Shown piece after piece: positions 47,936-52,859 of a DNA stretch of 55,272 bases (its first letter is position 1; the number at the start of each line of letters is the position of its first letter). The translations under genes were made by a program, and so were the position numbers. The notes beneath the pieces were generated by a model that searched no databases, was not told where the DNA came from, and saw only the letters and a list, made by a program, of their open reading frames with translations. Origin of the DNA: Nitrospirota bacterium (GTDB lineage: Bacteria; Nitrospirota; Nitrospiria; JACQBW01); the NCBI GenBank assembly GCA_016194305.1, contig JACQBW010000024.1, positions 1 to 55,272 of the forward strand, read 5' to 3'.

Positions 47936-50131
47936 ATGATAAAGCAAAATGATAAGGAAACGATTGAATCTCTGACTCGCGAAATTGATCCCGATATTCG
48001 AAATCTCTTTTTTTCCCATCTTGGACCTGATTATTTTTCCCTTTACACTCCTGATGAAATCGCAAGGCACATAAAACTGACTGCCGAAGTGACCGGAGAA
48101 CACCTTGTCCGTTGTCAGATCAAGCCGATTGAAAAAAAACTCTTGAATATTGTCATCGCGGGTTACGACTATTTTTCAGAATTTTCTCTCCTCTGCGGAC
48201 TTTTGACGTCATACGGATTGGATATTGAATCCGGTCACATTTTCACTTTTGAGGAATCATCCCTAAACCAGGATTGCAAAAGAATTATCGACCACTTTCA
48301 AGTCACAGGTGCGGACAGGACTTCATTTAATCAAGAAGCCCGAATAAGGTTTAAAGCAGATCTGGACACCGTCGTCAAATACTTGGAAAACAATCAGCTC
48401 GATCGTGCAAGAGAGAAAGTGAATTTGCAGGTTGTCGAATTCTTATCTGGCATTGAGTTTCCGATGGATGGCAAGACATTTCCTACCAAAATCACATTTA
48501 ATAACAAACTTTCCGCCGAGTCGACTCTGATGGAGATTGAATCAAGAAATAGTCCGGGTTTTCTATATGCTTTTTCTAATGCGATTTCGTTGCAGAACAT
48601 CAATATTGACAAAGTCACCATTGAAAGCAGCGGTCAGACAGTTCATGACCGGATATTTTTAAGGTATGCGCAGGGGGGACAGATAAAAGGTGGAAAAACT
48701 CAAAACCAGTTAAAAATCGCAATCTTATTTACAAAGCAATTTACTTATTTTCTCGCTGCGGCACCCGATCCCGTAAAGGGCATTCAATACTTTGACCGGC
48801 TTTTGGGTAAAATCATGGAAAAAGGACTTTCTCCGTCCGCGATCACGTTTCTAAATGGCGAAAGAAATCTGGATCTTCTCGCCCGTCTTCTTGGAACAAG
48901 TGAGTACCTTTTTGAAGATTTTCTCAAAATGCATTTTGATGAACTCCTTCCTATACTTAAAAAGTATCGTGCGGAAAAACTTCGTCCGGGCAAGATTCGC
49001 CTCAAGCAGGCCCTGCGCAAAACCATTCGAGTGACCAATCGTTATGAAGGGAAAAAGGAAAGACTCAATCAGTTTAAAGACCGGGAGCTTTTCCGCATTG
49101 ACTTGGTCCATCTTTTGTCGCGTAAAAGGAATCTGGTAACCTTTTCGCGTGCTCTTTCTGATTTGGCAGAAATCGTTTTGGAATCGGCCTATAAAATTGG
49201 ATTTGACGATTTGCAACATCGGTTCGGAATGCCGAGGCTTGAGAACGGGAAGCCCTGTCCCTTTGCGATCTGCGGGTTGGGAAAGTTTGGGGGAGGGGAG
49301 ATGGGATTTGGATCTGATATCGAACTGCTTCTCGTTTATGGCGGGGATGGAGAAACGGATGGCAAAGATCCCATGACCAACCAGGAATTTTATGAAAGAT
49401 TGGGTCAATCCATTCTCAACCTGATTGAAGCAAAACGGGAAGGGATTTTTCATGTGGATCTACGTCTAAGACCTTATGGAAGTAAAGGGTCGCTGACTAA
49501 TTCACTGGATTTTCTTGAACGGTATTATCAACTGGGTGGAGACGCGGCACCCTTTGAAAGGCAAGCCCTTACAAAATTGTGCTGGGTAACGGGAAATGAA
49601 TCTCTAGGACGAAAGATTGAAAACATTCGGGACCGGTTTACCTATTCCGGCGCCCCCTGGAACCTGAAAACCGCATTGAATCTCCGTCAGCGTCAGACGA
49701 AAGAACTCGTACAACCCCGGACCGTAAATGTTAAATATAGTCCCGGAGGAGTTGTGGATCTCGAATATGCTGTGCAATATTTCCAAATACTCAAGGGCCG
49801 TACCTATCCGGTAATAAGAACCCCCACTACGTTGATCGCGATAGAACGGCTTTCCCAGGTCGGACTGATTTCCAGAAAAGAAAGAGAGGAATTGATTGAG
49901 TCATATCTTTTCCTCAGAAATCTGATCGATGCCTTAAGAGTGGTCCGGGGAAACGCGCGAGATCTCATTCTTCCTGAACGTTCATCAAATGAATTCAAGT
50001 TCCTCGCGCGGCGAATGGGATATTTCAGGCCGGATTGGGAAAATGGGGCTATCGAAATGGACAGGGATATTCGACGGAACATGAAGTGGGCACATCAATT
50101 TTATACCGGACATTTCTCGAAAAAGAGGTGA
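47936..50131 (+). CDS. Single-module GlnE-like nucleotidyltransferase with N-terminal ACT domains
   Basis: 731 residues. Two ACT-like segments come first (about 66-110 and 205-250; the second, 'SPGFLYAFSNAISLQNINIDKV', is close to the ACT domains of GlnD). After a helical region (about 300-400), a GlnE-type nucleotidyltransferase core has GLGKFGGGEMGFGSD, with Asp461-Ile-Glu463 where GlnE has Asp-x-Asp, and VDLRLRPYG with Asp508. 'GGVVDLEYAVQ' and a GlnE-like helical bundle follow. It resembles the adenylylation half of GlnE, joined to GlnD-style ligand sensors. The converse half lies on the other strand, 14 nt away tail to tail. Confidence 0.78.
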   Translation: MIKQNDKETIESLTREIDPDIRNLFFSHLGPDYFSLYTPDEIARHIKLTAEVTGEHLVRCQIKPIEKKLLNIVIAGYDYFSEFSLLCGLLTSYGLDIESGHIFTFEESSLNQDCKRIIDHFQVTGADRTSFNQEARIRFKADLDTVVKYLENNQLDRAREKVNLQVVEFLSGIEFPMDGKTFPTKITFNNKLSAESTLMEIESRNSPGFLYAFSNAISLQNINIDKVTIESSGQTVHDRIFLRYAQGGQIKGGKTQNQLKIAILFTKQFTYFLAAAPDPVKGIQYFDRLLGKIMEKGLSPSAITFLNGERNLDLLARLLGTSEYLFEDFLKMHFDELLPILKKYRAEKLRPGKIRLKQALRKTIRVTNRYEGKKERLNQFKDRELFRIDLVHLLSRKRNLVTFSRALSDLAEIVLESAYKIGFDDLQHRFGMPRLENGKPCPFAICGLGKFGGGEMGFGSDIELLLVYGGDGETDGKDPMTNQEFYERLGQSILNLIEAKREGIFHVDLRLRPYGSKGSLTNSLDFLERYYQLGGDAAPFERQALTKLCWVTGNESLGRKIENIRDRFTYSGAPWNLKTALNLRQRQTKELVQPRTVNVKYSPGGVVDLEYAVQYFQILKGRTYPVIRTPTTLIAIERLSQVGLISRKEREELIESYLFLRNLIDALRVVRGNARDLILPERSSNEFKFLARRMGYFRPDWENGAIEMDRDIRRNMKWAHQFYTGHFSKKR

Positions 50132-50145
50132 ATTCTCACTTTTGA

Positions 50146-51810
50146 TCAGCGCGGAAACTTGAGGAGTGCGGAGGACTCGGGCCCGTTAAATAGATCTTCA
50201 AAAATCCGGTGAATCCGGCCGGTATGTGTCTTGTAATCTTTCGCAAATTGCACCGTGGCCGTTTCATTCTCATTGTCACGGTAATCAAGCCTTAGAGCGG
50301 CCATTTGAAACTCTTCCTCACCCTCTGGAAGCGTGTGAGTCTGATTTTCATGGACCATTTGAAGTGAGTTTTCAACTTTTCTCAAAAAGACATAACCATC
50401 TGTTAAAGTACCAAAGCACTCCATCGGAATCACCCCAAGACCATAAAGTTTTCTCAAACCTCCCAGGGTCTGGCGGTCTCGAATTTCCGGGTATTTCTTC
50501 CCGTAAAAAATCTGTAAACACTGCACGATAAACTCCACCTCGCGGATCCCCCCGATCCCCAATTTAACATGGAGAAAGCTCTTCCCTCGGGCGGACATTT
50601 TATTATCTATTTCCTCTTTGATCTTACTGACTTCCGAGAAATGAATGGTTGAAAAAGGGGATTGGTAAATGAAACGGCTTGCCAAACGGAGGAATTTTTC
50701 TCCAAGACGCATCTCCCCGGCCACAGGCCAGGCTTTCAACAAAGCCAGTTTTTCCCAGCTCTCTCCTCTCTTTTCATAATATTTCCGGAATCTGGTGAAC
50801 GAACTCGTGATTTCTCCTGATCTTCCTTCGGGGCGAAGTCTTAGATCGACCCGATAAAGAAAACCCTTGGATGTCATGGCGTTCAATCCGGCAATCATCT
50901 CCTGCGAAAGGAGGGTAAAATAGGTTTTGTTTGGAATCATGGAGTGCGGTAATCCTTTTCGATTTCCTGAACTGACTCCCTGATCGCTTTCATAAAGAAA
51001 AATCAGATCGACATCAGAAGAAAAATTTAATTCTCCACCTCCCAGTTTTCCCACGGCCAGGACGACGAAAGCGGCTCTTTCGCCCTCCCCGCCTCGCCTT
51101 CTCACTTTCGGAACGCCGTATTGTCTTTTGACTGTCTCTTCTGAAATGCGCAAAATATTTTCAAGAACGACTTCGGCCAAAACGGACAAGGAGGAGATCG
51201 TTTCTTCCAGCGACGCTTTCTGCAGTAAATCCCGAACGCCGATACGAAGAAGCTCTTTATGTTTTAATACACAGAGCATTTCGATCTTCTTCTCTTTGCT
51301 TTTCAAGTTTCTTAATGTTTTTTTAAAATCGCCCGCAAGATTTTTTTTGGGGACATTTCCGTCAAGCGTCTGGCTTTCAGCAATCCAATAGAGATAATGC
51401 GGATAACGAATCAGAACTTCCGACATAAAGGGACTGCTCCCAAAAACTTTTGCGAGCAGCCAGACAGTATAGGGAGAGTCTTTCAGGTAGGAGAGGAGAT
51501 TGGCTTTATTCAACGCCATTCTGGTAAATCGTTCAAAATAGTTCAGGGCTTGATCCGGATCGGGCGAACGGGAAAGAGAATCCAAAAATTCGACGATGAT
51601 TTCTGACAGAAGCAGACGGGAGCGGGGGTCGTCGGCAATCAGTTGAAGGTTCATATCCCCCTTCTTGATGTCTTTAATTCCCACCGGGGATAAAATGGCC
51701 GAAACTCTCTCGTAACTGAGATCGCCCGCCAGCAGGAGCTCTTTGGGATTGGGTTTTCTTTTAGTCACATGATCATTATAATAAGACGTGACTGAAAAGG
51801 GAATCTTCAT
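50146..51810 (-). CDS. Single-module GlnE-like glutamine-synthetase adenylyltransferase/deadenylase
   Basis: 554 residues. One nucleotidyltransferase core with AVGKLGGGELNFSSD and Asp266-Val-Asp268, VDLRLRPEGRSGEI with Asp322, and 'GIGGIREVEFIVQCLQ'; helical bundles flank it. The ELNFSSDxD form is that of the N-terminal (deadenylating) half of two-module GlnE (about 950 residues). Here only one module is present. Together with the convergent 731-aa gene it could replace full GlnE. The start is ATG 51810, 89 nt from the divergent Tim44-like gene. Confidence 0.85.
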   Translation of the reverse strand: MKIPFSVTSYYNDHVTKRKPNPKELLLAGDLSYERVSAILSPVGIKDIKKGDMNLQLIADDPRSRLLLSEIIVEFLDSLSRSPDPDQALNYFERFTRMALNKANLLSYLKDSPYTVWLLAKVFGSSPFMSEVLIRYPHYLYWIAESQTLDGNVPKKNLAGDFKKTLRNLKSKEKKIEMLCVLKHKELLRIGVRDLLQKASLEETISSLSVLAEVVLENILRISEETVKRQYGVPKVRRRGGEGERAAFVVLAVGKLGGGELNFSSDVDLIFLYESDQGVSSGNRKGLPHSMIPNKTYFTLLSQEMIAGLNAMTSKGFLYRVDLRLRPEGRSGEITSSFTRFRKYYEKRGESWEKLALLKAWPVAGEMRLGEKFLRLASRFIYQSPFSTIHFSEVSKIKEEIDNKMSARGKSFLHVKLGIGGIREVEFIVQCLQIFYGKKYPEIRDRQTLGGLRKLYGLGVIPMECFGTLTDGYVFLRKVENSLQMVHENQTHTLPEGEEEFQMAALRLDYRDNENETATVQFAKDYKTHTGRIHRIFEDLFNGPESSALLKFPR

Positions 51811-51899: not shown

Positions 51900-52859
51900 A
51901 TGAAAAAGAAAAATGCTGTCGGCTGTCTAATTCTCATGCTCCTGTTCGGTCTTATTGTTGCTGAATCGGATTCGTTCGCCCGTGCCGGAGGGTCCAAATC
52001 ATTCGGAAGCCGTGGAAGCCGTACCGCCGCTCCTGCCGCTTCGCCTTCTCCCACCACAGGATCCTCACCCGCAGCAATGGGTCAAACGCCCGTTCAGCCC
52101 ACATCCCAGCCATCCCCCGGTTTATTCGGGGGTGGGTTTGGAAGAGGCGTGATGGGAGGCTTGATCGGCGGTATGATCGGGGGAATGCTCTTCCGGAGCC
52201 TTGGTTTTGCGGGGGATGGCTTCGGCGGAAGCGGTATCGGTCTATTTGAGGTCCTCCTCATTGTCGGAATCGGATTTGGAATCTACACCTGGATGAAAAG
52301 AAATTCGAGTCTTTCTTACTCTTCACCCGAAAGAGGAAGTTCATCGGTTGCCATTCCAGGGTCCATCTACCAAGGTTTTCCTACCGGCAGCGGAGGTGTC
52401 GCCACTTTCAAATCCGTTGGAGAAGGACTGAGGGCTATTTTGGCTATGGATCCTCAATTTAAAGTTGAAAATTTTAAGAATCTTGCAAGCGATATCTTCT
52501 TCAAAATTCAAATCGGATGGGGCAAAAGGGATATCTCCTATCTTTCAAAATTTTTGACTCCTGAAATGAATTCAATATTCGATAGGGAAATCGGTCGGTT
52601 AAAGGCAGAGTTCAAAAATAACCATATTGATAATATCTCCCTCCGTGCAGTTGAAATTGTGGAGGCCTGGCAGGAAGAGGGCTGCGACTACATTACCACA
52701 CTGATTTCAGCCAATTTGCTCGACTATACCAAGAGTGACGTTTCCGGAGAGATTGTTTCGGGGTCGGATATCGAACCGGTCTCTTTTAATGAAAACTGGA
52801 CTTATTGCCGGCCCGTAGGAACCGGCAACTGGACACTGTCAGCTATTCAGCAGGTTTAA
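51900..52859 (+). CDS. Tim44-like domain protein, membrane-anchored
   Basis: 319 residues. A signal or anchor helix (about 6-22), a long Ser/Pro/Gly-rich linker, a Gly-rich membrane segment with another helix (about 115-133), and a C-terminal Tim44/MbaM-like domain (about 170-315) with 'FKNLASDIFFKIQIGWGKRDISYLSKFLTPEM'. Bacterial members are membrane-bound with unknown roles; mitochondrial Tim44 binds Hsp70 at the import channel. It heads a plus-strand operon with the next two genes (13 nt and then an 8-nt overlap). Confidence 0.82.
   Translation: MKKKNAVGCLILMLLFGLIVAESDSFARAGGSKSFGSRGSRTAAPAASPSPTTGSSPAAMGQTPVQPTSQPSPGLFGGGFGRGVMGGLIGGMIGGMLFRSLGFAGDGFGGSGIGLFEVLLIVGIGFGIYTWMKRNSSLSYSSPERGSSSVAIPGSIYQGFPTGSGGVATFKSVGEGLRAILAMDPQFKVENFKNLASDIFFKIQIGWGKRDISYLSKFLTPEMNSIFDREIGRLKAEFKNNHIDNISLRAVEIVEAWQEEGCDYITTLISANLLDYTKSDVSGEIVSGSDIEPVSFNENWTYCRPVGTGNWTLSAIQQV

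Follow-up and report, generated by a model that had tools for sequence, protein, structure and literature searches.

A GlnE system split into two single-module genes, one carrying GlnD-type ACT domains, in the Nitrospirota class that contains Nitrospira

The Nitrospirota class that contains the nitrifier Nitrospira carries, as a class-wide character, a GlnE split into two genes. One encodes a stand-alone AT-N module of 554 aa, the counterpart of the N-terminal, deadenylylating half of GlnE and a predicted glutamine synthetase deadenylylase, and the other a 731-aa chimera (ACT-GlnE), a predicted glutamine synthetase adenylylase in which a GlnD-type sensory N terminus is followed by one GlnE-type module. 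In the textbook cascade by which GlnE, PII, and GlnD control glutamine synthetase, GlnE is normally a two-headed single enzyme, and we consider it probable that the two proteins, as deadenylylase and ACT-controlled adenylylase, together replace it. The 554-aa protein would take AMP off adenylylated glutamine synthetase, while ACT-GlnE would add it under the control of its fused sensor. Nitrogen status, most simply glutamine, would thereby act directly on the protein that inactivates GlnA, and PII, which the host's intact GlnD would continue to modify, would probably supply a further input, for instance at the 554-aa protein. We infer the reaction direction of each protein, glutamine as the ligand, and the residual control by PII.

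The pair was found in a window of 55,272 nucleotides, the whole stretch of DNA that was analyzed. The ACT-GlnE gene occupies positions 47936 to 50131 on the forward strand and the 554-aa gene positions 50146 to 51810 on the reverse strand; both end in TGA, and a spacer of 14 nt (positions 50132 to 50145) separates the convergent stop codons, exactly as the first-pass annotation had described the two open reading frames. In a domain profile search, PF03710 (GlnE) and PF08335 matched each protein once, with PF03710 scores of 144 bits for ACT-GlnE and 215 bits for the 554-aa protein (cut-off, 24 bits). Each polypeptide has one nucleotidyltransferase module, not the two in one chain that characterize GlnE, which agrees with the annotation's proposal of a GlnE split into two single-module genes and, as shown below, holds across the class. 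The GlnE NCBIfam scores (189 and 335 bits, respectively) were below the equivalog cut-off of 487, as expected for half-length proteins. The ELNFSSDxD-type module noticed earlier in the 554-aa protein was seen as GKLGGGELNFSSDVD (residues 254 to 268; positions 51007 to 51051, reverse strand), and the protein contains GELNFSSDVD, with the SSDxD and GG-x-R-E motifs of AT-N. In ACT-GlnE, residues 261 to 729 (positions 48716 to 50122, forward strand) form the GlnE-type module, consisting of a helical region, the nucleotidyltransferase, and the PF08335 helices. Its catalytic motif, GKFGGGEMGFGSDIE (positions 49280 to 49324, forward strand), includes D461 and E463, and a third carboxylate, D508, lies within DLRLRP. 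The earlier description of this motif as ELGYGSD-like was right with respect to its ELGY-like part, but Glu takes the place of the second catalytic Asp. A promoter and terminator scan gave nothing above chance. A gene for a Tim44-like domain protein (PF04280; positions 51900 to 52859, forward strand) adjoins the 554-aa gene and is divergent from it.

The host is placed in the class Nitrospiria on the strength of the labels of the ACT-GlnE matches given below, and its genome is 2.27 Mb and 95% complete. A complete glnE elsewhere in this genome, which the first-pass annotation had set against its own proposal, was looked for and rejected: the PF03710 search found no full-length GlnE, and the sole other match was a weak one in glnD.

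The distribution of the pair was followed in 296 genomes of the phylum Nitrospirota, some 114 of which were of the same class as the host. ACT-GlnE gave a strong match in about 100 of these 114 genomes; matches in other classes were weak, and all 12 of the other-class genomes examined had an ordinary two-module GlnE, in open frames of about 980 to 1,310 aa (typically ~1,050 aa). When 127 genomes of the class were searched with PF03710, the listed matches were single-module frames with no two-module GlnE among them, and genomes without the pair typically had one weak match only, as expected for glnD. Because about 100 relatives share it, the pair cannot be a product of chance or of an assembly error; since the genes also lie on opposite strands, a single glnE broken by a frameshift or by the assembly was rejected. 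Among the best 80 of 428 named matches to the ACT-GlnE family, the labels were Nitrospirota, Nitrospira, or Manganitrophaceae, with the complete genome of Nitrospira moscoviensis included; one record was labeled uncultured Nitrosospira. An AT-N-like partner adjoined the ACT protein in 78 of these best 80 loci, and one of the two exceptions was at a contig end. All 78 adjacent pairs were divergent. The convergent order reported by the annotation is thus correct for the window but not general: it is a lineage feature, common to other lineages of the class (L029, L030, L032, and L034), and most relatives have the divergent order. No full-length ACT-GlnE was found in the plasmid records searched.

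Twelve genomes lacked the ACT protein or were doubtful for it, and in nine of them the 554-aa homologue was absent as well. The remaining three were G131, G216, and G197. In G131, which belongs to the same family as the host, the ACT-GlnE match (contig C55:7053-8480) was limited to residues 4 to 467, with an in-frame TAA and near a contig end, and the match found for the 554-aa homologue was this cut-off ACT protein itself, no more. G216 had a piece at a contig end. In G197, the ACT-GlnE gene was not found, and a truncated 554-aa homologue, its C-terminal ~300 residues, lies in a 661-aa frame (L188 6072-8054) with an unrelated signal-peptide-like start, adjoining glnA and what looks like glnD.

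We placed the two modules in a tree of 66 modules comprising AT-N, AT-C (the adenylylation half of GlnE), and the 554-aa and ACT-GlnE families. The split between AT-N plus the 554-aa family and AT-C plus the ACT-GlnE family had support of 100/98, which contradicts an origin of the ACT-GlnE module as a recent duplicate of the 554-aa protein. Each of the two families formed a clade at 100/100, and AT-C formed a clade at 100/96 with ACT-GlnE outside it, on a long branch. Adding one long-branched actinobacterial GlnE disturbed the deep order, and the 554-aa family still grouped with AT-N. Against the full GlnE of L049, the 554-aa protein matched AT-N better than AT-C (326 versus 262 bits), and on the strength of this match and its placement in the tree it behaves as an AT-N orthologue. 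At the diagnostic motif, GG-x-R-E in AT-N and GG-x-V/I-D in AT-C, the 554-aa protein has R-E and ACT-GlnE has D, with two of five diagnostic sites in ACT-GlnE being AT-N-like. Constraining ACT-GlnE to group with AT-C sequences from its own phylum cost 9.2 log units (AU p 0.024), so that descent of the module from the AT-C of that phylum's GlnE was weakly rejected. ACT-GlnE therefore appears AT-C-like with an uncertain deep origin, lying on the AT-C side of the split yet joining the phylum's AT-C only at that cost. In this respect the annotation's interpretation needs correcting, since the ACT-GlnE module cannot simply be equated with the local AT-C. As a tentative further step, the usual adenylylation half may have disappeared in the Nitrospiria lineage, its place being taken by a third, ancient branch of GlnE nucleotidyltransferases joined to a GlnD sensor; the result would be a PII-independent adenylylase that senses glutamine directly.

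The catalytic carboxylates are retained in both proteins. The ACT-GlnE family as a whole has S-D-I-E where GlnE has S-D-x-D, the second Asp being replaced by Glu; the motif reads GKFGG[RK]E[LM]GYASDIE in most relatives and ends in SDIE in 79 of the best 80 of 428 loci. ACT-GlnE also has Asn at a site where both halves of GlnE carry a nearly invariant Arg. These two changes would fit a catalytically dead or purely regulatory ACT-GlnE that senses nitrogen and controls the 554-aa protein as the sole modifying enzyme, which we regard as very unlikely: S-D-I-E and the carboxylates D461, E463, and D508 are invariant in all 26 family members compared, as are the glycine-rich loop GKxGG and D-x-RLRP, and D-x-E is found in active nucleotidyltransferases such as kanamycin nucleotidyltransferase. 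Because of this last point, we infer that ACT-GlnE is catalytically active. The same D-x-E motif and Asn, together with the long branch outside the AT-C clade and the four PII-like proteins encoded in the host genome, could instead point to a target other than GlnA, such as a PII protein or a different glutamine synthetase-like enzyme, with the 554-aa protein alone acting on GlnA. We consider such a target unlikely, given that the two genes are almost always adjacent and mostly lost together, that glnA is near or beside the pair in many genomes, and that ACT-GlnE retains the AT-C-type aspartate motif.

Many genomes, though not all, have glnA linked to the pair. The distance is no more than about 21 kb in 17 genomes, and in two glnA directly adjoins the ACT gene; in at least two others (G009 and G110) it shares the contig but is distant. 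In G112, glnA is 6 kb from the pair and has an apparent glnD next to it. GlnE adenylylates and deadenylylates Tyr397 of GlnA, and this site was conserved as KNLYEL or KDLYDL in the 25 canonical GlnAs of the class that were examined. Canonical glnA was not found in the host draft genome; it exists in a genome of the same family, and its absence from the draft is probably an assembly gap. The draft has a single glutamine synthetase-type gene, which belongs to a second, divergent type (L008, contig C35:5240-6241).

The annotation's assignment of GlnD-type ACT domains to the 731-aa protein was confirmed. Residues 3 to 262 (positions 47942 to 48721, forward strand), which cover post-HD helices and two ACT domains, align with positions 601 to 844 of the GlnD family TIGR01693 (whole-protein E value, 2e-23). 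The ACT profiles PF01842 and PF24931 match the protein, the latter in 26 of 26 family members. An AlphaFold model (mean pLDDT, 82; pTM, 0.74) has two ACT-type folds, at residues 58 to 151 (positions 48107 to 48388, forward strand) and 185 to 273 (positions 48488 to 48754, forward strand), and a Foldseek search with it returned first 1V4A and 3K7D, which between them represent both halves of the E. coli enzyme GlnE, and then, weakly, ACT-containing proteins. A BLASTP comparison of the N terminus with the host's own GlnD gave no significant match, despite the strong GlnD profile match. The ACT domains of GlnD are regarded as a glutamine sensor, and the ACT ligand loop has a nearly invariant glycine (PMC3173338). 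In ACT 1 of the family, this glycine of the beta1-alpha1 loop is absent, the window protein having D-Y-F-S-E-F instead of D-R-P-G; in ACT 2, the window protein has N-S-P-G-F-L-Y and the family D-T-P-A-F-L-Y, with Gly in 4 of 26 members (the window protein included) and Ala in 20. Amino acid binding by the region therefore appears uncertain, and glutamine sensing is at most plausible.

The host genome also encodes an intact GlnD (890 aa, with nucleotidyltransferase and HD motifs) and a canonical PII, which keeps the uridylylation tyrosine Tyr51 and whose gene sits beside glnD and amt. Three additional PII-like proteins have atypical T-loops (contigs C12:29159-29826 and C16:11802-12089), and two of them adjoin each other. 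The intact GlnD and PII and the mostly unconserved loop glycine would suit ACT domains that are structural, serving oligomerization, or that respond to another effector, with control passing solely through PII as in E. coli. This seems doubtful in view of a recognizable ACT profile match in all 26 members and the invariance of loop residues D78, F80, G88, P207, and F209 to Y211. The same GlnD and PII leave the annotation's idea of sensing instead of passage through PII unsupported; an ACT input that is additional to PII is the more likely.

Overall, replacement of GlnE by the two proteins is supported by the adjacency of the pair, its mostly joint absence, the lack of a two-module GlnE in the class genomes examined, the linkage to glnA, the conserved GlnA tyrosine, the split in the tree, the diagnostic motif, the retained catalytic carboxylates, and the match of the ACT-GlnE model to both E. 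coli GlnE structures. Against it stand the long branch of ACT-GlnE outside the AT-C clade, D-x-E, the change of Arg to Asn, the mostly missing ACT loop glycine, and a host draft without canonical glnA.

Compared with GlnE (NF008292/PRK11072; 1V4A and 3K7D), the pair has the same two kinds of module with conserved catalytic loops, 1V4A and 3K7D are the best structural matches of the ACT-GlnE model, and the GlnA target site is conserved in relatives. However, the modules are encoded by two separate genes on opposite strands, and the adenylylase-like module is divergent, has D-x-E, and is fused to GlnD-type ACT domains. The first ~260 residues of ACT-GlnE match the C-terminal sensor of GlnD (its two ACT domains with the helices before them), whereas the nucleotidyltransferase and HD hydrolase domains of GlnD are lacking and the catalytic module is GlnE-type. 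In the full-length GlnE of other Nitrospirota classes, both modules are in one chain and no ACT domains were recognized; its N-terminal half is the closest out-of-class relative of the 554-aa protein, with up to 36% identity. The glnE of Geobacter has been described as one gene (PMC2700814); the other literature found consisted of general papers on PII. In the literature searched, which covered few subscription journals, we found no description of a split or ACT-containing GlnE, and the pair is thus a variant of the GlnE system with no published description found there.

An entire class of nitrifiers of environmental importance apparently has the rearranged cascade, which is relevant to the way ammonium assimilation is limited in Nitrospira. 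With the opposing activities predicted to lie on separate proteins, the two could be independently expressed and regulated, and an ACT sensor on one of the two suggests rewired nitrogen control. The pair also offers a natural single-module system for the old question of how the two halves of GlnE share out the signals from glutamine and PII.
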